Origin: a virus
IMG/VR virus record: IMGVR_UViG_3300030102_003131
Location: 1-36,763 of that record
Strand: one strand, 5' to 3'
Length of the DNA stretch: 36,763 bases
Under the pieces are notes generated by a model. That model saw nothing but the letters and a program-made list of their open reading frames with translations, was not told where the DNA came from and made no database searches. A program made the position numbers and the translations under genes. This document shows, piece by piece, positions 3,745 to 36,700 of this stretch. Within the stretch, counting starts at the first letter, position 1. Every line of letters starts with the position of its first letter.

Positions 3745-5843
3745 AACCCTGCTGCTCTAGCGGTCATGTCGTTTATCTGCCGCTCTCTATCTTGCTCTGC
3801 CTTAATCCTAGCTATATCTACCGCTGAACCATATTGACCCAGAGTTTTAGCGGCATCAACATATAAATCTTGTGCCATTTGATCTCTTCTAAGATCATCC
3901 TGCATATTCATTTCTTCGCGTTTTCTAGCATCATCCATCTGCGCTCTTTGCAAATCAACTTGCGCTTTGGTTTGCGCCTTCATTGCTTCAGCCTGCACCA
4001 TAGCTGTTGCAGGGTCTTGCGCTTGCCCTTGCCCTGCTAGTGCGGCTTGCTGCTGTTGTTGTATCTGCAATAGTTGCATCTCTATCTCTGGTGTAATTGG
4101 CGCGAAGTAACGGTCTGCATTTCTAATACCGCTAGACGCTAATATATCAGAAAGAGTATTTCTAATGTTTGTTAGCGATACCAAGCCGTTCATAGGGCCG
4201 TAAGTTTGATAAACCATAGTCTGCTGTTGCAGAGCCATAGCCAGAGCGTTCATTTTCTCCTCTTCTCTGCCAGTGCCAAGCCCCACATTAATGCTTATGT
4301 CCATATCTATATCAAAAGCTTTTGGATCAACAGGTTGAAAACGCCCATTCATACGCATCATAGCGCCATCTTCCATGTTCTTTTGTAGCAATCTCAACAT
4401 TAAGCCAAACAAGTCTCTAGCACCGTCAGCTAGATTTCGCACCATCACCTCTACTTGCCCTGCTGCTGCTTGCACAGTGGCCTGCACAGCGGCCTTAGTT
4501 GTAGACTGCATAGCATCAGGGTCTAAGCCCATAGAGGCCCTAGTAACGCCTGTCTTGCCCTCTACAAGCTGGTCTAAGTAGGTTAGTGCGCCTAGCGTCT
4601 GCCCTGCTGTAAATGGAATAGCTAAATCCTGCACTGCGCCTGCCTGCCTCATACGAACAATCGCGCCTATCTCATTGTTTAAAACATCGTCTATATTTAC
4701 TGCGCCATCGACTATACCAACTCTAGGATTATTAGTCATAGCTACATTGTCTAATATACCTCTCAAAATAGAGGTTGCTGCGTCTTGATCATCTATAACT
4801 AGATCAGCAATACTTCTGCCATAGAACGTGTGTGGTTCTGGGTCTACTTCAAATTTTGCAAAAGGTAATTCATCTGCTAACTCATAATCTAGCAGTTTGT
4901 ACCTAGTTCCACCGCATAGAAATCTATGCAACACAGCAACCCCTGTTCCATCAACGTCCATCCGCATATAAGCTTCTGTTAAAGTAACTTGATTCATAGA
5001 TGGATCAGAGCTTGTTTCATTAAAATCACTTGTATAGCCCTGTCTCTCAGTTCGCTCGGCTTCAGTCATTTCTGTGCCTGCATCAAAACTATCAAGTTTT
5101 AAAACTTCTTCAGCATCAAACCCCATAGCTATAAGATCGCTTGCTCTCATTTCTGTTCTATGAACAACAACATGAGCATCCTCTAGGGTTCTGCAATTTC
5201 TATCTACAAAAAATTCTTCTGGAGGTACGCTTTCTATTTTTAAGCAACCAGCATACATTTTTCTTGATACCTTTGCAGAATGAACAGGCATCTCAACCTC
5301 AACGCCTTGCTCATTCATGCTCATTTCCTGCTCAACGGTATGTTCTAAAACTGTTACATCATCGTCCTGCACTAGAAATGTATACTCATCGTCAGATAGG
5401 TTTGTGTAAGTATATATTTCTGCTTGGGGCATTTCTTCCCAGTAAGCTTTGACTATACCCTGTTTTTTAATTAGCGCATCGTGAAACGCATCGTTCAACA
5501 CCCTATAACCATTGCTGCGCTGAAACTCGTAATGAACGTAATCAGTCGCTTGCTCTGCCATTGCCACATCTTCTGCGCCATGAGGCATAAACTCTACAGG
5601 TCTAGCAGTACTTAAAAACACACGCATCAGGCTAGGCTTAACCGCACGCACAACATCGCGAACTTTAGTTGCAACAACTTTGCTACGCCCATCCTCAAAG
5701 CCTATGTCAACTTCACCATCGTAGTATCTTTGAGCAGTTATCCTATCTTCCGATATTTCGCTTTCAACAAAGTCTACAGCGTCATCAATAGCAGCCTGTA
5801 CAATACTTTCTATTTCACTTTCTGTTTTAGCTTTAAGTTCCAT
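3741..5843 (-). CDS. Portal protein (P22-like)
   Basis: A 700-residue protein, close to the size of the P22 portal (about 725). It should form the dodecameric ring through which DNA is packaged and ejected and to which the tail attaches. Supporting features are a helical N-terminus, a central segment with DPEPHTFYGRSIADLV and DQDAATSILRGILDN of the kind found in P22-type portals, a TKAAVQATVQAAAGQVE helix, and a Gln-rich coiled-coil C-terminus (about 590-700) that may form a barrel. It lies between the internal-protein genes and the scaffold/capsid pair. The start has GAGGGCGG upstream. Confidence 0.92.
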   Translation of the reverse strand: MELKAKTESEIESIVQAAIDDAVDFVESEISEDRITAQRYYDGEVDIGFEDGRSKVVATKVRDVVRAVKPSLMRVFLSTARPVEFMPHGAEDVAMAEQATDYVHYEFQRSNGYRVLNDAFHDALIKKQGIVKAYWEEMPQAEIYTYTNLSDDEYTFLVQDDDVTVLEHTVEQEMSMNEQGVEVEMPVHSAKVSRKMYAGCLKIESVPPEEFFVDRNCRTLEDAHVVVHRTEMRASDLIAMGFDAEEVLKLDSFDAGTEMTEAERTERQGYTSDFNETSSDPSMNQVTLTEAYMRMDVDGTGVAVLHRFLCGGTRYKLLDYELADELPFAKFEVDPEPHTFYGRSIADLVIDDQDAATSILRGILDNVAMTNNPRVGIVDGAVNIDDVLNNEIGAIVRMRQAGAVQDLAIPFTAGQTLGALTYLDQLVEGKTGVTRASMGLDPDAMQSTTKAAVQATVQAAAGQVEVMVRNLADGARDLFGLMLRLLQKNMEDGAMMRMNGRFQPVDPKAFDIDMDISINVGLGTGREEEKMNALAMALQQQTMVYQTYGPMNGLVSLTNIRNTLSDILASSGIRNADRYFAPITPEIEMQLLQIQQQQQAALAGQGQAQDPATAMVQAEAMKAQTKAQVDLQRAQMDDARKREEMNMQDDLRRDQMAQDLYVDAAKTLGQYGSAVDIARIKAEQDRERQINDMTARAAGL

Positions 5844-21800: not shown

Positions 21801-22281
21801 GGTCTACAACTTTCATTTTTCGCAACGCATCCAAATGTAAATCACCAATATTAATCTGTATATTTTGCTGACTACCTGTACCATACCTATTTTTGTTTAA
21901 AGATGAAGCTATAAAATTATGTTGCTGCGCTAAACCCTTCGCAATACCAATATCAACCTGATTAACATTACCCTCAGAAACGTCACGATCACCGTTTAAG
22001 GCTTCTTTAACCTCAAGCTCTCGCCTTTCTCTAATATCGTTAAGCATATCAAACGCAGCATCCGCATGAGCATCAGCAACTTGATGCTCTATCTCTCGTA
22101 TAGCATTGCCATACTTTTCATCCTTCATAAGATTACGCCTAAAATAGCCGCGATCTAAATTTAGCTCTTTAGCAATCATAGGAATTGTTTTGCCTGCTAA
22201 CAATTCTTTCTGCAAAGCTTCAACGCCACCTCTTCTATCAAGTTCGGATAAAGCTTTTTTTAATTTTGGTTTACCAGCCAT
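21793..22281 (-). CDS. terS: Terminase small subunit
   Basis: A 162-residue protein. The helix-turn-helix is at about residues 30-52 (T-I-P-M-I-A-K-E-L-N-L-D-R-G-Y-F-R-R-N-L). A central helical oligomerisation region (57-125) follows, and the C-terminus contains QQNIQINIGDL and may contact the large subunit. It is the first gene of the leftward late operon and overlaps terL. It would recognise the packaging site, which in this type often lies in or near the gene. Confidence 0.85.
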   Translation of the reverse strand: MAGKPKLKKALSELDRRGGVEALQKELLAGKTIPMIAKELNLDRGYFRRNLMKDEKYGNAIREIEHQVADAHADAAFDMLNDIRERRELEVKEALNGDRDVSEGNVNQVDIGIAKGLAQQHNFIASSLNKNRYGTGSQQNIQINIGDLHLDALRKMKVVDHE

Positions 22282-22323
22282 ATTTTTTCCGCAAAAGTTA
22301 TGTTCAACATACTACAATTAATA

Positions 22324-22356
22324 ATTATTAATGCCTATAGGCATTTTAATAATTAA
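22324..22356. repeat. 33-bp repeat with 16-bp palindrome, copy upstream of terS
   Basis: This is identical to 27979-28011. It contains the perfect palindrome AATGCCTATAGGCATT (22330-22345) flanked by AT-rich sequence. It begins 43 bases upstream of the terS start. Both copies lie just upstream of leftward genes, suggesting an operator or replication element. Confidence 0.85.
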
Positions 22357-22446
22357 TTAACCTTAAGTATAGGTATGTCTTACTAGTATTAAAGCCCTTA
22401 AAAATATAGAAAATATTAAAATATTAATAAAATATCTGCAAAATAC

Positions 22447-22467
22447 TTAGGATTTTAAAAATCCTAA
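22447..22467. repeat. Inverted repeat TTAGGATTTT / AAAATCCTAA
   Basis: Ten-base arms are separated by one central base, so this is a binding-site-like palindrome rather than a terminator. A reverse-oriented copy of CTTAATAATT (22469-22478), the motif repeated at 28017-28094, lies next to it. Confidence 0.6.
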
Positions 22468-22684
22468 CAATTATTAAGTTCCTAAGAGGGGGTATGGGGG
22501 GGTGTTGCGAGAAAGCGTAATAAAAAATTCGGGAGGTAAAATTTTATTAAACAACACCCAAAAATATTATAACATAAATTCTACTGTGTGGGAATGTAGT
22601 TATAGCATAGGTACGCCAGATATTTTAAATGGGGGGGGTCCAAAAAAAATGATCTTGTTTGTATACAATTGCTCTCTATTGTTC

Positions 22685-22830
22685 AACATTAGCTCAAACA
22701 AGTACCAAGCAATACTTAAATGGGGTTAGGTATTTAGTTAAACATTAATTAAACATTGCTAAACAAAGTTGAACCATTGTTTTGATTTGAACATTATTTA
22801 AACAATGCAAAACAAAAGCTTGCCAATGTT
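22685..22830. repeat. Cluster of AACATT / AACAATG motifs (iteron-like)
   Basis: AACATT occurs at 22685, 22741, 22753 and 22790, its complement AATGTT at 22825, and AACAATG or its complement at 22776 and 22801. Spacing is irregular. The motifs may be binding sites for a replication or regulatory protein; chance enrichment in AT-rich DNA is possible. Confidence 0.4.
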
Positions 22831-23093
22831 TTAAAAATCGCATATTCGCGTGCGCCCGCGCCCAACCTTGTGTTTTAGTATCTGCTCGGTCGATTTTTAA
22901 CACAATCTGAACAATGCGAGACAATTGTATACTAAACAGTCAAAAAATGGGCAAAAATCGCGTAGAGCCAATATAAAGCCCTCTGATAAGCCTTATTTCC
23001 TTTTGTATAGTTTAGGTCATAAAAAAGCTTTAACCCTACTCAGTGAGCAATTACCTAATATCGCCTAATATTTAATCAATATTATATAAATGT

Positions 23094-23122
23094 TTGCTAA
23101 TATCTATTGATATCGATAAAAT
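23094..23122 (+). promoter_or_regulatory. Predicted sigma70 promoter of the early operon
   Basis: TTGCTA (23094-23099), a 17-base spacer and TAAAAT (23117-23122). Transcription would start near 23129, about 50 bases before the first early gene. Confidence 0.6.
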
Positions 23123-23178
23123 GAACGTGTAACCGCGCTACTACTGATTCGCGCATAAACTAAGGAAAGGCTAAAAAA

Positions 23179-23370
23179 GTGAAACAAGTATTATTAAAGC
23201 ACGTTAAAGAGGGTCATTCTTTCAAACGTAAAAAGGACGCCAAGCACGAATTTATTCGTAACCATTATAACCGTAAAAGCTGGTTAAATGGTTTTGCCAA
23301 TTATTCATGTACTAACTATGAAACTGGAAACGAAATATTCCTTAAACCAACAACATTAGTTTGGGTTTAA
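23179..23370 (+). CDS. Small early protein (63 aa), function unknown
   Basis: It starts with GTG behind the conserved AAGGAAAGGCTAA leader. It contains K-E-G-H-S-F-K-R-K-K-D-A-K...Y-S-C-T-N-Y-E-T-G-N-E-I-F-L-K-P-T-T. This resembles a group of short phage proteins with an FKRKxDAK / IFLKxxTxV pattern, possibly a small SH3-like fold, with no known role. It is the first gene of the rightward early operon and is followed one base later by hairpin cassette 1. Confidence 0.78.
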   Translation: MKQVLLKHVKEGHSFKRKKDAKHEFIRNHYNRKSWLNGFANYSCTNYETGNEIFLKPTTLVWV

Positions 23371-23371
23371 T

Positions 23372-23419
23372 ATTGATATTAATGACCAGCCTATATTTAG
23401 GCTGGCATTTAATACCAAT
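23372..23419 (+). ncRNA. Intergenic hairpin cassette, copy 1
   Basis: The outer stem ATTGATATTA / TAATACCAAT has one A-C mismatch. Then come ATG/CAT pairs, a bulged A on the 5' side and a bulged T on the 3' side, and the inner stem CCAGCCTA / TAGGCTGG with a 4-base loop. The same architecture with a different outer-stem sequence recurs at 24301, 25119 and 26309. It starts one base after a stop codon. Confidence 0.8.
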
Positions 23420-23444
23420 TGCATAACTAAGGAAAGGCTAACAA

Positions 23445-23591
23445 ATGCAAACTAAATACCAAATGCTTAAAGCATATTTAGACAAATTAGAGCGAGACTC
23501 CGAGCGTGATTTTTTTGACGATTTTCAACATTTATCGCCACAAGATAATGACCAACTAAAAAGTGAGGGTTTAACTAATGACTTTAACTAA
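23445..23591 (+). CDS. Small acidic early protein (48 aa)
   Basis: A 48-residue protein starting MQTKYQMLKAYLDKLERDSE, helical and acidic with an F-F-D-D-F segment. The start is set by the AAGGAAAGGCTAA leader seven bases from the ATG. It overlaps the next gene by 14 bases, giving coupling to the Cys-rich protein. Not recognised. It could be an inhibitor-type or adaptor peptide, as such acidic early peptides sometimes are, but nothing here proves it. Confidence 0.72.
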   Translation: MQTKYQMLKAYLDKLERDSERDFFDDFQHLSPQDNDQLKSEGLTNDFN

Positions 23592-24303
23592 AACCCAAAT
23601 AGCGGCAAACGCTGGAAAAACATTATTTCAGTATCGCGTTAAACCAGCTGATAAATCTTTAATGGCTAAAAGTGAAAGACTTATTAAAAAGTCTACAAAT
23701 GCCAAGCTTGGTAAAAAAGTCAGAAAAGGACATTATAAAGGCTATCCAATTTATACGTTAACTTTAGAAGAGCGTGCAACTTGCCCTAGGTCATGCGTTC
23801 ACTGGCTGGATTGCTACGGCAATCATATGAGATACGCTTACCGCTACCAGGCTGGAGCAGCACTTGAGGCAATGCTAGAAACTGAGCTTGCCGAATTGCA
23901 GCGTAAACATCCTAAAGGCTTTTTAGTTAGGTTACATATATTAGGCGATTTTTACAGCGTTTCATATGTTGCTAAATGGGCAAGCTGGTTAGGCAAGTTT
24001 CCAGCTTTGCACGTTTATGGATATACAGCCAACCAGCCCAACGCTAATGACAAGCTTGAGCGCTCAATAGGTCAAGCAATCTTAAGCTTGCGAGAAAATG
24101 CAAACGGACGTTTTGCCGTTAGGTTTAGCGGCAATTTTGACGATAATTTTTCTGCAAATAGTTTTGATGATGTTAGGTCAAAAGAAGCAATAGAAAGGAA
24201 AGAAGCGATACTTTGCCCTGAACAAACGGGACAAGTAAATTCATGTGCTGATTGTGCGGTTTGTTGGGTCGCTCAAAAACCTGTCATATTTCAAACTCAC
24301 TGA
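23578..24303 (+). CDS. Cys-rich phage protein resembling the Gp88 family (putative Fe-S protein)
   Basis: A 241-residue protein. The N-terminal part carries C69-x3-C73-x5-C79 (CPRSCVHWLDC). Later come H120-x-x-G-D-F (LHILGDFYS) and a V-Y-G-Y-T segment (147-150), and a C-terminal cluster C213...C223-x2-C226-x2-C229. This combination fits the phage family known as gene product 88. The cysteines suggest an Fe-S cluster and a distant radical-SAM-like layout, but family function is unknown to me. It is in an early operon between two hairpin cassettes; the second begins at its stop codon. Confidence 0.72.
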   Translation: MTLTKTQIAANAGKTLFQYRVKPADKSLMAKSERLIKKSTNAKLGKKVRKGHYKGYPIYTLTLEERATCPRSCVHWLDCYGNHMRYAYRYQAGAALEAMLETELAELQRKHPKGFLVRLHILGDFYSVSYVAKWASWLGKFPALHVYGYTANQPNANDKLERSIGQAILSLRENANGRFAVRFSGNFDDNFSANSFDDVRSKEAIERKEAILCPEQTGQVNSCADCAVCWVAQKPVIFQTH

Positions 24304-24351
24304 GCTTATTAATGACCAGCTTACAAGCTAGGCTGGCATTTCATAAGCTTA
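24301..24351 (+). ncRNA. Intergenic hairpin cassette, copy 2
   Basis: The outer stem TGAGCTTAT / ATAAGCTTA (one G-U pair) starts at the stop codon itself. It shares the ATG-bulged-A-CCAGC core, and here U-G replaces the C-G pair in the inner stem (CCAGCTTA / TAGGCTGG). The outer stem sequence is unrelated to copy 1, yet pairing is kept. Confidence 0.8.
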
Positions 24352-24397
24352 CTAAAAGTTTATGGTTATCTGTTAAACAAAAAGGAAAGGCTTACTA

Positions 24398-25120
24398 ATG
24401 GATAAAAAAGAAATACTAAACAGAATGAAAATGTTCAGTGAACGCACCATTGAAAACGGATGCAGTGAAGCTGAGGCAATGCTTGCCGCTAAAAAACTAA
24501 GCGAATTGCAAGCTAAGTATAACGTAACCTTAACCGAGCTTGACGTTCAGGAAATGGACTTTGAAATTCATTATTTTGAAGCTGGTAAACGTAGGCATCC
24601 AGTATCATGTGCGTTCAATGGTATTAAAGAATTTTGCCAAGTTCAAATTTTGTTTCATCCTCACCAAGTCAAAAATGTTTCAGTTTTTGGTGAACCTCAT
24701 AAGGTGCAAAATGCTTTGTATATGATCAACTTGATCAAAGCGACAATGGATCAGGAATTCGCACAATTTAAATTGCAATGGGAATACCAAGATTTAAGAA
24801 TGCGTCATCATCCGCAATCGATACGTTCAAACTTTTTAAATGCTATGGGTTTTCGAATAAGTGAACGATTAAAAGAAATGGCACAAGCTGAGAGAGAGCA
24901 AGTAAAAGAGCAAGCTAGCACTGGAACGGATTTAATCGTTTTAGCTGATAATAAAAGGGTTCAGGCATGGCGCAAAATGTTTCCAAGTATTCGCAAGGGT
25001 TCAGGCCGCAACGCTGGTAGCGGTGGCGCTGGTGCTGCTGGCCGCGCTGCTGGCAATAGAGCAAGCCTGAATCGCGGTGTAGGCTCAGGAAGCTCAGGAG
25101 GCACGCTCAGGCTAGCTTAA
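24398..25120 (+). CDS. DUF2786-type protein with Gly/Ala-rich tail
   Basis: A 240-residue protein. The N-terminal helical hairpin has E-A-E-A-M-L-A-A-K-K-L-S-E-L-Q-A-K-Y-N-V (about 21-42), the DUF2786 pattern. The middle region includes SVFGEPHKVQNALYMINLI (about 94-112). Low-complexity Gly/Ala/Arg/Ser sequence fills about 200-236. Such proteins are widespread in phages and have no established function. It lies between hairpin cassettes 2 and 3, with the AAGGAAAGGCTTA leader at its start. Confidence 0.75.
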   Translation: MDKKEILNRMKMFSERTIENGCSEAEAMLAAKKLSELQAKYNVTLTELDVQEMDFEIHYFEAGKRRHPVSCAFNGIKEFCQVQILFHPHQVKNVSVFGEPHKVQNALYMINLIKATMDQEFAQFKLQWEYQDLRMRHHPQSIRSNFLNAMGFRISERLKEMAQAEREQVKEQASTGTDLIVLADNKRVQAWRKMFPSIRKGSGRNAGSGGAGAAGRAAGNRASLNRGVGSGSSGGTLRLA

Positions 25121-25169
25121 ACGCTACTGATGACCAGCCCTAGCTTAGGGCTGGCATTCAGTGTCGTTT
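25119..25169 (+). ncRNA. Intergenic hairpin cassette, copy 3
   Basis: The outer stem AAACGCTACTG / CAGTGTCGTTT (one mismatch, one G-U) overlaps the stop codon. It keeps the bulged A and T, and an inner stem one pair longer (CCAGCCCTA / TAGGGCTGG) in which both arms changed together. Confidence 0.82.
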
Positions 25170-25198
25170 TGACGCTCACAGCTAAGGAAAGGCTAAAA

Positions 25199-25282
25199 AT
25201 GAGTAATAGAGAAATTATTTGGTACACTGTATCGAGAGCTTTAGTGCTGGCTCTTATTTTCATTTTACCCCTGTTTATCTGA
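25199..25282 (+). CDS. 27-residue membrane peptide
   Basis: It starts MSNREIIWYTVSRALVLALI and ends LPLFI: a polar N-terminus followed by one transmembrane helix. The start is fixed by AAGGAAAGGCTAAAA. It follows hairpin cassette 3. Its size and hydrophobicity suggest a host-membrane effector, but it has no known family. Confidence 0.6.
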   Translation: MSNREIIWYTVSRALVLALIFILPLFI

Positions 25283-25296
25283 TATCAAGTAAATGT

Positions 25297-25325
25297 TTGA
25301 GATATCATTTTAAACATGGTACAAT
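25297..25325 (+). promoter_or_regulatory. Predicted sigma70 promoter inside the early operon
   Basis: TTGAGA (25297-25302), a 17-base spacer and TACAAT (25320-25325): each hexamer is 5 of 6 to consensus. The expected start, 7-8 bases downstream (25332-25333), coincides with the 5' base of the helix that closes the structured RNA. Confidence 0.7.
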
Positions 25326-25332
25326 TCGAATC

Positions 25333-25424
25333 GTGGCAGTTAGTGAAGCTCGTTAAGGACTGTTTGTATTATAGCAAATTAATATGATTAGTGATTAAAC
25401 CTCAAGTAGCTGACTGTCACACCA
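25333..25424 (+). ncRNA. Putative structured RNA (leader or small RNA)
   Basis: Bases 25333-25344 pair with 25409-25420 in a 12-bp helix with three G-U pairs and no mismatch (GTGGCAGTTAG against CTGACTGTCAC, plus one closing U-G). Inside, 25353-25358 can pair with 25400-25405 (one mismatch). Hairpins of five pairs each lie at 25362-25379 and 25379-25398; they share base 25379, so they cannot both be complete. After the closing helix comes ACCA. It looks tRNA-like in size and ends but has no TTCRA T-loop, so a true tRNA is unlikely. It ends 20 bases before the next start codon. Confidence 0.55.
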
Positions 25425-25444
25425 AAAAGAAAAGGAAAGGCTAA

Positions 25445-25633
25445 ATGTATACTGTAGATGAAAAGCTCTTTTATCATGGGCGTTTAATCTCTTTGCATCG
25501 TGAGGATGTTAACAACCCTTTACACCCCAATTTATGGGCTGATTTATGCGGTGATCTAGACCTTGACCCAGAAACAACAAACGCCGTTGATTTGAAGGTT
25601 GTTAAGGTTAAAGTGACGGATGCTTCACAATGA
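25445..25633 (+). CDS. Small early protein (62 aa)
   Basis: It starts MYTVDEKLFYHGRLISLHRE behind AAGGAAAGGCTAA, and is acidic with a C-terminal beta strand (V-D-L-K-V-V-K-V-K-V). Not recognised. It ends in an ATGA overlap with the next gene, so the two are coupled. The putative structured RNA lies directly upstream and could regulate its translation. Confidence 0.72.
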   Translation: MYTVDEKLFYHGRLISLHREDVNNPLHPNLWADLCGDLDLDPETTNAVDLKVVKVKVTDASQ

Positions 25634-25872
25634 GATATTTACCGACTTTAAATATCTGGAAGCCTAGCGTTCAAAACGCTATTAAAAGCGGTCAAATCAA
25701 GCTACAGCGCGGTCAATGGTTGCGCTGTGGCACTGAGGGCAAGCGTTGCCGTTTTGTTGGGTTTTTAAATGATCGTTCAATCTGGGTGACACACTGGCAA
25801 GGTACACCCGAAAAAACCAACGCTAAGTTTTTAAGTGCTGTTAAAAATTACACTGCAAGGAATGCACGATGA
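25630..25872 (+). CDS. Small basic early protein (80 aa)
   Basis: Basic and Trp-containing (W-K-P-S, G-Q-W-L-R-C-G, I-W-V-T-H-W-Q-G). A compact core, I-K-L-Q-R-G-Q-W-L-R-C-G-T-E-G-K-R-C-R-F-V-G-F, with two Cys, suggests a small beta barrel that might bind nucleic acid. ATGA overlaps join it on both sides to its neighbours. No family assigned. Confidence 0.72.
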   Translation: MRYLPTLNIWKPSVQNAIKSGQIKLQRGQWLRCGTEGKRCRFVGFLNDRSIWVTHWQGTPEKTNAKFLSAVKNYTARNAR

Positions 25873-26141
25873 GGGGTATAAAGTTAAGGTTGAGCAACGG
25901 ATACATTTTATCCGTTGTTCCTGAGATGAACGAAAAAGTTCATGACGGTTTAGTTGAGGTTGCTTTGCTTAATTCTGATAGGGATTTTGTAAATACTTGG
26001 CTATGGCTGGGCGTGCCTGACGATCAAGAGGACAGCGACTATTGGCCTGACGTTGAGCGTTTTGTTGGGGCAAAGCATTTGCCCAGAATTATTGAAAAAG
26101 CTTATTGCTACGCAGAAAGGATTGCAGATGCAAAAATATGA
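25869..26141 (+). CDS. Small acidic early protein (90 aa)
   Basis: It starts MRGIKLRLSNGYILSVVPEM, with two beta strands and then an acidic middle (VPDDQEDSDYWPDVERF) and a C-terminal helix. It overlaps the previous gene by ATGA and the following one by 14 bases. Function unknown. Confidence 0.7.
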   Translation: MRGIKLRLSNGYILSVVPEMNEKVHDGLVEVALLNSDRDFVNTWLWLGVPDDQEDSDYWPDVERFVGAKHLPRIIEKAYCYAERIADAKI

Positions 26142-26310
26142 ATTTTACCTTGAAGCTGAATATGGCGTTAGCTTTGGTATTATCCGAGCTAAGGATGAAA
26201 AAGATTTTCTCAGAATTTTAAAAGAGGACTTTCCGCGTGATATAGGCGCAGATGGTTTTTATAACTGCCCGACAACTGGCGATGAGGTTGCCATAGATTG
26301 GTTTTTATAA
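26128..26310 (+). CDS. Small early protein (60 aa)
   Basis: It starts MQKYEFYLEAEYGVSFGIIR. AAAGG lies seven bases upstream of this ATG, so I prefer it to an upstream ATG at 26053 that has no such site. It appears alpha/beta, acidic, with a C-terminal E-V-A-I-D-W-F-L. Its stop codon overlaps hairpin cassette 4. Function unknown. Confidence 0.7.
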   Translation: MQKYEFYLEAEYGVSFGIIRAKDEKDFLRILKEDFPRDIGADGFYNCPTTGDEVAIDWFL

Positions 26311-26357
26311 TGCTATTGATGACCAGCCTTTTACCTAGGCTGGCATTCAATATCATT
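26309..26357 (+). ncRNA. Intergenic hairpin cassette, copy 4
   Basis: The outer stem AATGCTATTG / CAATATCATT (one mismatch at the same level as in copies 1 and 3) begins at the last two bases of the stop codon. It has the same ATG/CAT pairs, bulged A, bulged T and CCAGCC / GGCTGG core, with a larger terminal loop. Confidence 0.8.
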
Positions 26358-26380
26358 TCAACAGCAAGAAAGGCTAAAAC

Positions 26381-26587
26381 ATGATGATAGCGCACTACCC
26401 GACTAAAAAGGAGCTTAAAGAGAATATCGGCAAGCCCTTAAACTACACTGAGACTTCACTATTCGGCAATGAGTACACGCCTGATGGTGAATTTGCAGTG
26501 TGCAACAGGCCTCACTTAACAGGTTATAAGCGCGAGTTTTTCGCAGCCGTTACAATGGAAAACGGACTGATTAAGGCCGTTAAATGA
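26381..26587 (+). CDS. Small early protein (68 aa)
   Basis: It starts MMIAHYPTKKELKENIGKPL, preceded by AAGAAAGGCTAAAAC; the second ATG, three bases on, is equally possible. It has a helical N-terminus (KKELKENIGKPL) and a beta C-terminal half. An ATGA overlap joins it to the next gene. Not recognised. Confidence 0.7.
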   Translation: MMIAHYPTKKELKENIGKPLNYTETSLFGNEYTPDGEFAVCNRPHLTGYKREFFAAVTMENGLIKAVK

Positions 26588-26793
26588 AGCTTTACGATTT
26601 ACCGCTAAATTATGCGATTTACGGTAACACTGATAGCGCAGGCGATATTGAGTCTTACTCTTTAATTGATTGGCGAACTGGTGATCACGTTTTAGACGAT
26701 GATCAGATCGAGAATCTTTTTGTCGCCTACGCTATGTGTTTGAAGCGAATTGCGAAAATTAGACGCGATAAAGAAAAAAGGAAAATGCATTGA
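26584..26793 (+). CDS. Small early protein (69 aa)
   Basis: An acidic, beta-rich N-terminal half (Y-S-L-I-D-W-R-T-G-D-H-V-L-D-D-D-Q) and a basic helical C-terminus ending in R-R-D-K-E-K-R-K-M-H. Coupled on both sides (ATGA upstream, TTGA downstream). Function unknown. Confidence 0.7.
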   Translation: MKLYDLPLNYAIYGNTDSAGDIESYSLIDWRTGDHVLDDDQIENLFVAYAMCLKRIAKIRRDKEKRKMH

Positions 26794-27032
26794 TTAGTAT
26801 TTTAGAAAAATTGAAGCTTGAGCCTGTAGGCTTCGCAGTCGTTAAGATAAACAATCTTAACAAGATAAGCGTGTGGGCTATCCATGACCAGCTAAAGGCA
26901 AGTGAACACGTTGAGATACTTGGCTTTGCTAAAGAACTGCATCTAGCTGAATTGATAAGAGATAAAATCTTATTCGACAGCGCTATTGCTGAATCAGAAG
27001 CTATTTTAGAGAAAGGAATAGACATTGATTAG
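26790..27032 (+). CDS. Small early protein (80 aa), TTG start
   Basis: It appears to begin with TTG in TTGA, overlapping the upstream stop, with AAGG upstream. The protein starts (M)ISILEKLKLEPVGFAVVKIN and has two beta strands followed by charged helices. Not recognised. The next gene starts with the same CATTGATTAG sequence. Confidence 0.65.
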   Translation: MISILEKLKLEPVGFAVVKINNLNKISVWAIHDQLKASEHVEILGFAKELHLAELIRDKILFDSAIAESEAILEKGIDID

Positions 27033-27243
27033 CGGTGATATATCAGTTGATTTTTATATGCCTGACATAGGGGTGCATTTTACCTTTGTTGTCGATTATA
27101 ACTTTTTGGATTTACCAAATACGCACGTTCCAAGCGATAAGGAGATAGAGCAAGCTGTTTATAAGCTTATGAGGAACACTAGCCACGATATTGAGGATAT
27201 CGAACTTAATTTAACAGTTGATGAGGATGAAGGGGAATTATAA
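27025..27243 (+). CDS. Small acidic early protein (72 aa), TTG start
   Basis: A TTG start in TTGA overlaps the upstream stop, with AAAGGA upstream. Beta strands (ISVDFYMPDIGVHFTFVVDY) are followed by a helix with SDKEIEQAVYKLM and a very acidic end. Not recognised. It is joined by TAATG to the last gene of the operon. Confidence 0.65.
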   Translation: MISGDISVDFYMPDIGVHFTFVVDYNFLDLPNTHVPSDKEIEQAVYKLMRNTSHDIEDIELNLTVDEDEGEL

Positions 27244-27515
27244 TGCAGATAACTTTATGGCAAAGTGAGGTGATGGAAGCTATTACGGAGCATTTAAAAA
27301 AGAAAAAAATAGAGTTCAAAATTGATGACTTTGACGATGTTTGGATTGAATTTCAAGAGCCAGTTTGGCGCGAGAAAAAACACAAAAACGGCAAACCCAT
27401 TTTAAATAAGTTCGGCTATCCAGAAAGAGAAATAGAAAAATATGAGACTGTATCTCATGCTTTTTCTGAGGACGCTGAATTTCGTATTTACACTAGCTTT
27501 GTGGATGATGATTAA
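27243..27515 (+). CDS. Last gene of the early operon (90 aa)
   Basis: It starts MQITLWQSEVMEAITEHLKK, an N-terminal helix rich in Lys. It continues with aromatic and acidic beta sequence (FDDVWIEFQEPVW) and ends V-D-D-D. TAATG links it to the previous gene. It ends 33 bases before the strong terminator. Function unknown. Confidence 0.72.
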   Translation: MQITLWQSEVMEAITEHLKKKKIEFKIDDFDDVWIEFQEPVWREKKHKNGKPILNKFGYPEREIEKYETVSHAFSEDAEFRIYTSFVDDD

Positions 27516-27539
27516 AAAATAAACTCACCTTTCCTTGAG

Positions 27540-27740
27540 TTAAACTTGCCCTGCTTCGGCAGGGCTTTTTTTTGCGCCCTTGCCATGTTTCCAGCGCAAC
27601 AGGTTAAGTATTTCCGCGCTCAGGTGGTGTAGCTCATCATTTTCTATTATCCCTATCAGTGCGCCCTCATAATAGACCCTAAGCCCATCATCGTATACAG
27701 CCCACCTTAACGGTTCTTTCGTATTTCCATTAAACGCCAT
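27540..27740 (-). CDS. Small protein at the end of the leftward replication operon (66 aa)
   Basis: It starts MAFNGNTKEPLRWAVYDDGL with Y-E-G-A-L-I-G-I-I-E, a compact beta pattern, and a basic C-terminus. It overlaps the upstream gene by 34 bases. Its last codons are encoded by the terminator hairpin at 27548-27573, so the same bases serve the opposite-strand operon. No family recognised; I regard it as a probable gene. Confidence 0.6.
   Translation of the reverse strand: MAFNGNTKEPLRWAVYDDGLRVYYEGALIGIIENDELHHLSAEILNLLRWKHGKGAKKSPAEAGQV
27548..27573 (+). terminator. Strong intrinsic terminator of the early operon
   Basis: A 7-bp stem GCCCTGC / GCAGGGC with a TTCG tetraloop, followed by eight T. 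It lies 33 bases after the last rightward gene. It also overlaps the 3' end of the leftward gene at 27540-27740, where it may act as the mirror-image end. Confidence 0.92.
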
Positions 27741-27967
27741 TTTATCGCTTTTACCTGTTCTTCATTCCATTCAGGCAGATTAATACCGAGCACTCGCCTA
27801 CGGTTAGCAAAACCATACAATTCATCCTCAGTATTGATGCTAGCCAATTTTTGCTCAAACGTCTGCAAGAATTTAATTTTACTGGTTCCTTTTTTAAATT
27901 CTTTAGCAGAACCATTTTTTAACTTTTCTTTTAACCAATTTGAATAGTCCAATTTATTTCCTAACAT
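27707..27967 (-). CDS. Small basic protein (86 aa), replication operon
   Basis: It starts MLGNKLDYSNWLKEKLKNGS and is helical and Lys-rich, with an F-A-N-R-R-R-V-L-G-I-N-L-P-E-W-N segment and the C-terminal helix E-E-Q-V-K-A-I-K-W. The composition suggests a nucleic-acid-binding or regulatory helper. It starts 12 bases from the 33-bp palindromic repeat and may have its own promoter there. No family assigned. Confidence 0.65.
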   Translation of the reverse strand: MLGNKLDYSNWLKEKLKNGSAKEFKKGTSKIKFLQTFEQKLASINTEDELYGFANRRRVLGINLPEWNEEQVKAIKWRLMEIRKNR

Positions 27968-27978
27968 TAATATTATTT

Positions 27979-28011
27979 ATTATTAATGCCTATAGGCATT
28001 TTAATAATTAA
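27979..28011. repeat. 33-bp repeat with 16-bp palindrome, second copy
   Basis: This is identical to 22324-22356, with AATGCCTATAGGCATT at 27985-28000. It sits between the primase-helicase gene and the small genes at 27.5-27.97 kb, next to repeated CTTAATAATT. Confidence 0.85.
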
Positions 28012-28016
28012 ATAAG

Positions 28017-28094
28017 CTTAATAATTTATGTTCGTTTTCTTAATAATGCTTAATAATTGCATTTATAAGTTATTGTTTTTTAAACTTAATAATT
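28017..28094 (+). repeat. Four CTTAATAAT(T) direct repeats (iteron-like, possible origin)
   Basis: Copies are at 28017-28026, 28039-28047, 28049-28058 and 28085-28094, in a 128-bp AT-rich gap directly behind the primase-helicase gene. One inverted copy lies at 22469-22478. Iterons next to a replication gene plus an AT-rich palindrome are typical of phage origins, but function is inferred. Confidence 0.5.
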
Positions 28095-28095
28095 A

Positions 28096-30000
28096 TTAAA
28101 ATGGATTATTAGGCTCCTCATATTTACCTTCTTTATCGCAAAACCATATTTTACCCTCATTTATGGCTATATGGCCCTTTTTAACCATTGATTTTACCGT
28201 TTGATTGTAAGCTGATGATGAATTGGCATGATCGGGTAATTTACCCTTAAAATGATCCTTAAGAGTTTCACTTTCAATGCACCAGTAAGCACCGCCTTTA
28301 GGCCAGCCAGCGCCTGATGGGTTTTTACCTCCAATATTCTCACCTCTAAGCTGATAAAATACTTCTTTAAACATAACTTGATTAGGGCCAGAAATTTTTT
28401 CCCTTTTAGCCTCTTTTAGCTCTTCATCAGTCGGCTCACGAATCGTGCAAGTAGTAATGTCATCACCATCTTCATCTTGACCTAAAACTTCACGACTAAG
28501 TAAAAAATTTATTGTTTTACCTATTTCCATGTCACGTTGTTTTGTGGTTTTAGCCGTTCTTAAACCAATTTCTTCATTATTGGTTATTTCTATCTCAGTG
28601 TCAGTGCCAGCCTTTTGAGCCGAGCTACCTCTTAACCCTTTTGACGGGTCTTTACCTGAATGACCAACCAGCATAACGTGTATACCTGTTTCCGATCTCA
28701 AAATATCTAAATTTGTTAAAAATTTTGCAAAGTCGGAATTGCTATTTTCATCTAACTGACCTTGAGTGGCTCTAGATATAGTATCCACGATCAATACTTT
28801 AACTGGTTCATATTTTTTACCAATTATTTCAATTAACGATTTTACCTTAGCCATGTCATCTTCATTATTAAAAAGATTTATTGGTGCAGCCCTGACAGCA
28901 AGATTTACGTCTTCAAAATCGCTGTACTTGTTTCTTAATGCAATTAAACGTGTGTTAAACGCCTGACCACCTTCTGTCTGCAAATATAATACTGCTCCAC
29001 CTCTAACCTTATTGCCCAGCCAAGGCTGGTTAGCGGCAATATGATAAGCCATATCCATACAAAAGAAGCTTTTACCCACATTGCTTGCGCCATATACAAT
29101 GCTCATACTGTTTTCACTTAGCCAGCCTTTAACAATGTAATTTAACGATGTTTGAGCTACAGCTTGATCTGGAAATACAACCTCATCTAAAATGCTTTGT
29201 GGTCGTAAAGCTTTAATTAAAAACTCTTTTCCTCTAGCTACCCAAACATCATTCCAGTCTAATCCCTTGCTTTTAGGAACGACAAAATCAACACCATGTT
29301 CTTCTTTAGCTTTATTGCACGCTTTTAAACCAGCTTCATCATTATCACCAGCTATAGTAAATTCTGTTTCTGGTTTTACCGATTTTAACTCGCTAACTAC
29401 ATTTACAACATTACCAGCATTTAATGCATGAACGCATGGCACTGATGTTGCCTCATATACTGAAGCAGCAGTCGCAAAACCTTCCGCAATATAGGCTTTA
29501 TCCTTAATCACGCCACCAACAACATGAAAACATCCTTTGTATTGCAGACCAGTGTTAAACTTCTTTTGACCCTGCCCATCGATGTACTGGTAACCTTTTA
29601 TATCACCGTTTTTATCTATAACTGGTATTTTTAGCCTACCATTATCAATTTTAGCTCCATGCTGTTTAATCTTTTTAAGCGATAAGTACGGATGCACATC
29701 ATCAAACTTAGGCACTTTACTAAAGTCCTCTTTTTTTTGTGGCTCAAACTTAGGTAACAATCCCTGATCCCTTAAATTTTTTGTAATACCAGCAAAATCT
29801 TCACATTTGCGGCAATTAACACGAATTTCCCCATGAAACTCACTTATCCAAAATCTATCCTTACCGCCACAACAAGGACAAGCTCCGTGATATTCTTTTG
29901 GACTGACTTTTTTTAATTCTAAAGCTCGAATAATGCCTTCAGCATACTCTGACCAATATGCTGTATATGACTTGTTATTATTATCTAGATATTGTACCAT
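28096..30000 (-). CDS. Primase-helicase (zinc-ribbon, Toprim, RepA-like ATPase)
   Basis: A 634-residue replication protein. The zinc-binding N-terminus is C41-x2-C44 and C63-x2-C66 (CPCCGGKDRF...VNCRKC), for template recognition. The Toprim domain has Glu173 (IAEGFATA) and GDND at 218-221 as catalytic carboxylates. The RecA-like C-terminal half has Walker A GASNVGKS (304-311), Walker B VLIVDT (402-407) and VGHSGK (445-450), of the AAA_25/RepA helicase type. It would prime and unwind phage DNA. Phage DNA polymerase is absent, so host Pol III would extend. Confidence 0.93.
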   Translation of the reverse strand: MVQYLDNNNKSYTAYWSEYAEGIIRALELKKVSPKEYHGACPCCGGKDRFWISEFHGEIRVNCRKCEDFAGITKNLRDQGLLPKFEPQKKEDFSKVPKFDDVHPYLSLKKIKQHGAKIDNGRLKIPVIDKNGDIKGYQYIDGQGQKKFNTGLQYKGCFHVVGGVIKDKAYIAEGFATAASVYEATSVPCVHALNAGNVVNVVSELKSVKPETEFTIAGDNDEAGLKACNKAKEEHGVDFVVPKSKGLDWNDVWVARGKEFLIKALRPQSILDEVVFPDQAVAQTSLNYIVKGWLSENSMSIVYGASNVGKSFFCMDMAYHIAANQPWLGNKVRGGAVLYLQTEGGQAFNTRLIALRNKYSDFEDVNLAVRAAPINLFNNEDDMAKVKSLIEIIGKKYEPVKVLIVDTISRATQGQLDENSNSDFAKFLTNLDILRSETGIHVMLVGHSGKDPSKGLRGSSAQKAGTDTEIEITNNEEIGLRTAKTTKQRDMEIGKTINFLLSREVLGQDEDGDDITTCTIREPTDEELKEAKREKISGPNQVMFKEVFYQLRGENIGGKNPSGAGWPKGGAYWCIESETLKDHFKGKLPDHANSSSAYNQTVKSMVKKGHIAINEGKIWFCDKEGKYEEPNNPF

Positions 30001-35825: not shown

Positions 35826-36281
35826 TCATGGAAAGTAATCCCTTACGTCAATCCAATTCATATAGTGAAGATAAGCAGCAGCACCGACAAATGTAAAAAC
35901 AAGCAAAACAGCTATACCAGCTATTGTAATCATAAGCTCCTGCTGTGCGATTGCATCCCTTCTAGCTTGAGCTTCCGCTTCTCTCTTTTCTTGCAAAACT
36001 TCTCTGCGTATTTTTAGCAAAGTTTGCCAGTGTGACGGACCTAGCGTTTCTGATATAAATTTCTTTAATTCCTCTTCAGCTTCAGCCGCTTGCCTCAGCT
36101 TTTGAAAACGCTCCATAGCTATGGCATTTACACTTTTGCTTGAAACACCTTTTTTTTGTAGTTGTTTTTTTGCATTGTCAGTTGCATCAAAAAACTGCCC
36201 AATTTGTTTTGACAAGCTTGCTACAGATTTACCAGCGGCTAAACCTGTTTTTAACCCTGCAAGGATTGTTATGGGGTCCAT
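35826..36281 (-). CDS. Hypothetical membrane-anchored protein, allele 2
   Basis: A 151-residue homologue of 61-516 with the same N-terminus and topology, but 48 residue differences concentrated in the second half, including the transmembrane segment. It probably represents a different strain version at the overlapping end of the contig. If it is a real second copy, it would be a diverged tandem duplicate. Confidence 0.85.
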   Translation of the reverse strand: MDPITILAGLKTGLAAGKSVASLSKQIGQFFDATDNAKKQLQKKGVSSKSVNAIAMERFQKLRQAAEAEEELKKFISETLGPSHWQTLLKIRREVLQEKREAEAQARRDAIAQQELMITIAGIAVLLVFTFVGAAAYLHYMNWIDVRDYFP

Positions 36282-36283
36282 CG

Positions 36284-36700
36284 CTATCTACCATCAGACA
36301 TTGTTGGTCTTCTTGCTAGAAACTCTAATGTGCTTTCTAAAGTCTTAATCCTAGCTTGTAGTTTGATGATCTGATTAAATTGTAACAGAAAACCCTCTTG
36401 GGTTTCGTATACGTCTTCAAACTCTTCATATATTTCATCAATGGTTTCGGAACCGTCTTCTTCTACTTCTATGATGTAATCAATTATCTCATCTATACGC
36501 TCAGTGTTTTCTTCTACATCACGAATTAAGTTTGTTCGATCAGTTGCGTTGTTCTCAATCGTAAGAGTTTCAACTTGCTCTGTAAGCCCTTCAATAATTG
36601 AGGCTTGAGAGCTTGCATACCATATACCACCGCCCACGGTACTGACTATTGCCACTACCGCACTTGCAGCAACAGCTATATTTACCTTGGGCAGCTCCAC
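36284..36700 (-). CDS. Acidic coiled-coil protein, second allele
   Basis: 138 residues, differing from 519-935 at only four positions (one Gly/Ser, two Val/Ile, one Asn/Ser). It has the same N-terminal anchor and acidic helix. Confidence 0.85.
   Translation of the reverse strand: MELPKVNIAVAASAVVAIVSTVGGGIWYASSQASIIEGLTEQVETLTIENNATDRTNLIRDVEENTERIDEIIDYIIEVEEDGSETIDEIYEEFEDVYETQEGFLLQFNQIIKLQARIKTLESTLEFLARRPTMSDGR

Follow-up and report, generated by a model that had tools for sequence, protein, structure and literature searches.

Comparative analysis identifies the + strand stretch at 25333-25420 as a member of a real, uncatalogued family of structured phage RNAs, 86-88 nt in length, which behaves as an exchangeable module at the predicted 5' end of transcripts. 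The window in which it lies is the whole of IMG/VR virus record IMGVR_UViG_3300030102_003131, positions 1 to 36,763 (36,763 bases). An earlier note on this DNA had proposed a promoter, TTGAGA-N17-TACAAT, that would initiate transcription where a long helix begins, and its hexamers, its 17-nt spacing and its coordinates are all as described (Table 1). A consensus scan of 22200-28200 scores this promoter at 10/12, equal to the best match there, and no other + strand match reaches that score. The first helix of the RNA (P1) is entered 7-8 nt past the predicted -10. Between the RNA and the next gene of the window we found no terminator-like site, and the 62-aa product of that gene has no match in Pfam or PHROGs. 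Another promoter-like site, at 23094-23160, has the AAATGTTTG lead-in of the 25297 promoter and a GCGC hairpin immediately past its predicted start, and it precedes the first + strand genes.

Table 1. Positions of the leader RNA, its promoter and neighbouring features in the window, and of the short-form elements in related contigs.
Feature	Position	Strand	Evidence or remark
Predicted sigma70-type promoter, extended -10 (TTGAGA, 17, TG-G-TACAAT)	25297..25325	+	Consensus scan; near-unchanged TTTGTGATATCATTTTAAACGTGNTAMAATTCGAATC in 7 distinct relatives
P1 5' arm, beginning at predicted +1/+2	25333..25344	+	Seen directly; compensatory changes in the long, short and group-2 forms
Internal loop, 5' strand, GAAGCTCGTTAAGG	25345..25358	+	14/14 positions invariant in 9 long-form rows
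P2 hairpin (25359-25371 with 25380-25392), 8-nt apex 25372-25379	25359..25392	+	Compensatory changes at A1 columns 34/54 and 35/53
Internal loop, 3' strand, GATTAAACCTCAAGTA	25393..25408	+	15/16 positions invariant
P1 3' arm	25409..25420	+	Direct; conservation with group 2 stops at 25419
Ribosome-binding repeat of next gene, AAGGAAAGG	25432..25440	+	AAGGAAAGGCT repeated ahead of five window start codons
62-aa ORF 3' of leader, start codon 25445	25445..25633	+	Homologues in 6 contigs
Short-form elements, 63 nt	L009 4639-4701; L014 5309-5371; L012 5402-5464		Group-1 promoter

The window RNA consists of a 12-bp P1, a 14+16-nt internal loop and the P2 hairpin. P1 is present with the three G-U pairs that the earlier note had counted, as is pairing further in, although a rod suits that inner part better than the branched arrangement proposed: the fold and the consensus structure both describe one rod, in which P1, the internal loop and P2 follow one another. 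The minimum free energy is -27.8 kcal/mol (z -3.5), a value reached by 1 of 200 shuffled sequences, and z ranged from -2.4 to -5.2 in all 11 homologous elements folded. A UUAA/UUAA helix that the folding program draws is doubtful, as it is broken in two sequences.

Conservation follows this structure closely. In the A1 alignment, compensatory changes replace A-U with G-C at columns 10/80, G-C with A-U at 34/54 and U-A with A-U at 35/53, and pairing is kept in 99.1% of cells, compared with 13-52% for slid versions of the same structure. When the short form described below is included, three pairs of P1 are changed on both sides. Both P1 and P2 thus stay paired by way of compensatory changes. 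The interior of the RNA is more conserved than its ends: 29 of the 30 internal-loop columns are invariant, whereas 13 of the remaining 55 columns vary (permutation p 0.012, ignoring relatedness), and the P2 apex differs between homologues. Adjoining P1, the first three bases of GAAGCTCGTTAAGG (GAA) stand opposite the last four of GATTAAACCTCAAGTA (AGUA, AGTA in DNA) with loop-E polarity, which fits a loop-E (bulged-G) motif as a match of sequence, the invariance of these bases leaving no covariation signal. Such strict conservation of the internal loop speaks for a specific contact in addition to plain protection of the 5' end.

Coding does not account for this conservation, as no reading frame is kept across the RNA rows. 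The GTG-AAG-CTC... frame runs uninterrupted through some rows, but it meets stops in the window, L033 and L031 and is broken by a frameshift in L032; the other frames contain stops in every row. A seven-codon leaderless ORF at +1 (ATG/GTG-GCA-GTT-AGT-GAA-GCT-CGT-TAA) cannot be distinguished from structural conservation.

Counting the window, 11 viral records contain long-form copies: six belong to the window's own group of phages (group 1) and five to a second group (group 2). Relatives of the flanking genes and promoter yielded seven distinct elements in group 1, the window's included, of which four have the long form and three the short form; the five group-2 contigs, L029-L033, were found by scanning viral contigs for the 20-mer GTGAAGCTCGTTAAGGACTG. 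Group 2 differs from group 1 in portal, terminase and promoter, its portal of 802 aa being close to those of HTVC023P/HTVC027P and CRP-901/902, and both groups are apparently marine. L029 is 95.3% identical to the window over exactly 25334-25419 and the L031 RNA is 93.0% identical to that of the window, while the flanks agree with group 2 at 13-22 of 61 and 9-18 of 50 positions, which is chance level. Since identity is confined to 25334-25419 in this way, we take the unit of conservation to be the RNA alone, from P1 to P1'. Beyond the RNA, blastn aligns L031 with the window only at a right-end block of the window and at a diverged left-end copy of that block (75.6% and 65% identical). A pair of adjacent late genes, of 151 and 138 aa, is present twice in diverged form close to either end of the record (61-935 and 35826-36700).

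Known RNA families and reference genomes gave no counterpart. Rfam 15 returned 0 matches at the gathering cut-off, the best at E<=10 being gltS with 16.2 bits against a cut-off of 47.5 (E 4.7), and no Rfam 15 match overlapped the element at homologous loci. No copy was found by blastn in 50,697 phage records and 72,556 plasmids, nor by a two-part pattern in 84,980 bacterial and archaeal genomes, where three stretches matched, compared with roughly 12 expected by chance on our estimate, and 0 were supported by the covariance model. A looser pattern picked up 19 further stretches in viral contigs, and the covariance model scored none of them convincingly (best E 0.27). There was no match in CRP-361, CRP-114, CRP-738, CRP-902, HTVC023P, HTVC027P, Greip, phiM5 or ctjtQ328, and in DSL-LC04 one score at chance level (E 0.25). 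We found no paper describing RNA 25333-25420. By these comparisons the RNA is new in that it matches no catalogued RNA family, though structured phage RNAs are known as a kind.

These searches also bear on the proposal that the element is a tRNA-like mimic whose ACCA end would be aminoacylated, a reading suggested by its size and by the ACCA that follows P1 in the window and in its relative L008. The ACCA end holds for these two, and is absent from the other five of the seven distinct group-1 elements and from every group-2 element; there is no T- or D-arm, and ARAGORN found 0 tRNA genes, in keeping with the negative Rfam result. We consider a tRNA mimic extremely improbable and have rejected it because the homologues have no conserved ACCA.

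What lies around the RNA is far less constant than the RNA itself. The gene on its 3' side is a different one in L010 and unrelated in group 2, a variation that weakens the suggested role as a regulated leader of the next gene. In group 1, as well as in L030 and L031, the RNA is joined to an mRNA leader; in L032 and L033 it forms a separate unit. P1 again starts 7-8 nt past the predicted -10 in L029 and L033, behind a promoter different from that of the window; L030 and L031 have a third, less clear promoter. L029, L032 and L033 each have a dedicated promoter for the RNA, TTGACA-N17-[AG]ATCAT, the two making up an additional unit that was not observed in relatives, and in L033 the RNA is an inserted cassette upstream of the ancestral promoter. 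A strong terminator (GCTCGCGGG..CCCGCGGGTCTTTTTT) lies ~60 nt past the RNA in L032, with no ORF seen before it. The next ORF in L029 is convergent, a Mom-like gene that ends with its stop codon right against the RNA; this DNA modification gene (4010-4600; PHROG 1384, E 2.5e-9) is a reverse insert directly after the RNA.

Close relatives carry other structures at the same spot. Behind the same group-1 promoter, the short form is a different element with P1 in the same register (GTGGCGGC...GCCGCCAC) and two mutually overlapping pairings, which could represent a pseudoknot or a switch; a pseudoknot (GTGCAA/TTGCAC, TCTG/CAGA, TAAAG/CTTTA) fits 97% of cells, but three sequences are not enough to support it and it does not stand out from shuffles. 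In group 2, the RNA directly follows its upstream gene in 4 of the 23 contigs having that gene, so its presence is optional. L071 and L073 share the same promoter and the same downstream ACGTTATTTGAC and differ only in having a 20-nt hairpin or the RNA, and in a fifth group-2 scaffold an RNA-less allele (TAGGCTAAAGTTATGCCTTA) and the RNA allele flank 10 N. The remaining group-2 contigs have other leaders at the site, and those tried with the covariance model, which are fragments, contain no copy. Because relatives bear either another element or a plain hairpin at this position, the RNA is best described, from these alignments, as an exchangeable 5'-terminal module that is swapped with the 63-nt element or a plain hairpin between close relatives. 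Optional presence at three unrelated sites, with sharp boundaries at an inverted repeat, could instead reflect a mobile palindromic DNA element (MITE-like or attC-like) in which P1 provides the terminal inverted repeats and the RNA is incidental. We regard this as quite improbable, as all copies have one orientation and adjoin the predicted +1, the interior is conserved above the ends, no target duplication is visible by eye, and the site is exchanged with other structures rather than simply inserted into.

Comparison defines a + strand, non-coding, structured RNA next to the predicted start of different sigma70-type promoters, in agreement with the earlier suggestion of a small RNA or leader: conserved at +1, it is leader-fused in group 1, L030 and L031, and separate in L032 and L033. 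Since the following gene is irrelevant and placement at +1 is strict, we tentatively favour action in cis, on the polymerase that makes the transcript or on the transcript's decay, as a leader that would form the 5' end of the transcript and work independently of the following gene, through 5'-end protection, contact with polymerase or a host factor, or both. The stretch 25333-25420 would then lie at the 5' end of its own transcript, which, guessing from gene position, may be early or middle. P1 could bury the 5' end and so block 5'-end-dependent decay, and the conserved internal loop may be displayed on the emerging transcript to RNA polymerase or to a host factor that binds RNA, as in HK022 put. 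Terminator-like hairpins 3' of the RNA in L031 number 29, compared with 12.8 in shuffles (both strands); such an excess in group-2 operons would offer a target for antitermination, an observation made in RNA-bearing operons only and for which we claim no link.

Several copies sit less easily with a cis-acting leader, as the L032 terminator, the L033 cassette and the convergent gene in L029 fit a separate small RNA better. The main rival is accordingly a small phage RNA that acts in trans and is carried in the manner of a moron cassette; its loop would bind a host protein or pair with host RNA, and in group 1 it would be cut from the leader or work within it. We hold this to be possible, though less probable than a cis-acting leader: it would explain the extra promoter-bearing units in L029, L032 and L033, the terminator in L032 and the optional presence, but the RNA is fused to leaders in all group-1 contigs and in L030/L031, no terminator-like site separates it from the gene in the window, and no processing site was identified. 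The P1, internal loop and P2 also resemble a classic aptamer, with conservation concentrated in a junction-like loop, as would be expected of a ligand-binding riboswitch in early leaders. This is unlikely, given that the copies share no expression platform or downstream gene, that some are free-standing or face a convergent gene, and that MFE and suboptimal folds show no alternative pairing with the ribosome-binding site. A more novel reading, which we hold to be possible, is that the family represents a new phage RNA class whose loop-E-containing internal loop acts on the transcription or RNA-decay machinery of the host, and which phages exchange with one another as a plug-in 5' module, in place of other structured modules at +1 such as the 63-nt short form.

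The window holds further repeated elements outside the leader. Four intergenic hairpins past stop codons (23370-23425, 24300-24360, 25115-25170 and 26305-26365) share a common TGACCAGC...GCTGGCAT with an internal loop UGA/CAU, and their outer stems are variable yet still paired; downstream of three of them comes the AAGGAAAGGCT ribosome-binding repeat or a sequence very like it. By analogy, they resemble T7-style RNase III processing sites. A fifth match to this hairpin repeat, at 26877, lies inside an ORF and was set aside as chance. At 22330-22345 and 27985-28000, an identical perfect 16-bp palindrome, AATGCCTATAGGCATT, within a 50-bp repeat (92% identical) bounds the + strand gene block at both ends; these palindromes are possible regulator sites.

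The RNA is compact, nearly invariant, present in two phage groups and absent from Rfam, and the family has the unusual habit of being swapped at +1. With natural swap alleles at the same promoter, either another structured leader or a plain hairpin, its function is directly testable in a reporter. Candidate structured RNAs such as manA, wcaG, PhotoRC and Ocean-V have come from marine metagenomes and phages (PMC2864571). The window RNA was discovered in the same way, and some of those RNAs lie in phages; no family in Rfam release 15, however, matches the window RNA at its cut-off or close to it. 5'-terminal stem-loops protect mRNAs from 5'-end-dependent decay (RppH/RNase E), and the window RNA resembles them in that its helix lies within a base or two of +1, ahead of any gene, and that relatives bear plain hairpins at the same spot. 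It differs from plain protective stem-loops, which need no conserved interior, in that its interior is its most conserved part. To our knowledge, early phage transcripts that begin with a structured RNA of known action are few, HK022 put being the clear case. HK022 putL is a phage-encoded structured RNA of ~70 nt, with pairing from ~+3, directly downstream of an early sigma70 promoter; put RNAs form two stem-loops with a minor-groove triplex and, acting in cis through the RNAP beta' zinc-binding domain, suppress pausing and termination without a dedicated protein factor (PMC9378689). Like put, the window RNA is predicted to lie at the 5' end of a phage transcript next to its promoter, "early" again following from gene position. 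Its described structure, one rod interrupted by a 14+16-nt internal loop, sets it apart from put and counts against put-like action, and we have not filed it as put because put has two stem-loops; by analogy, HK022 putL is nonetheless the nearest model for how the window RNA may act.
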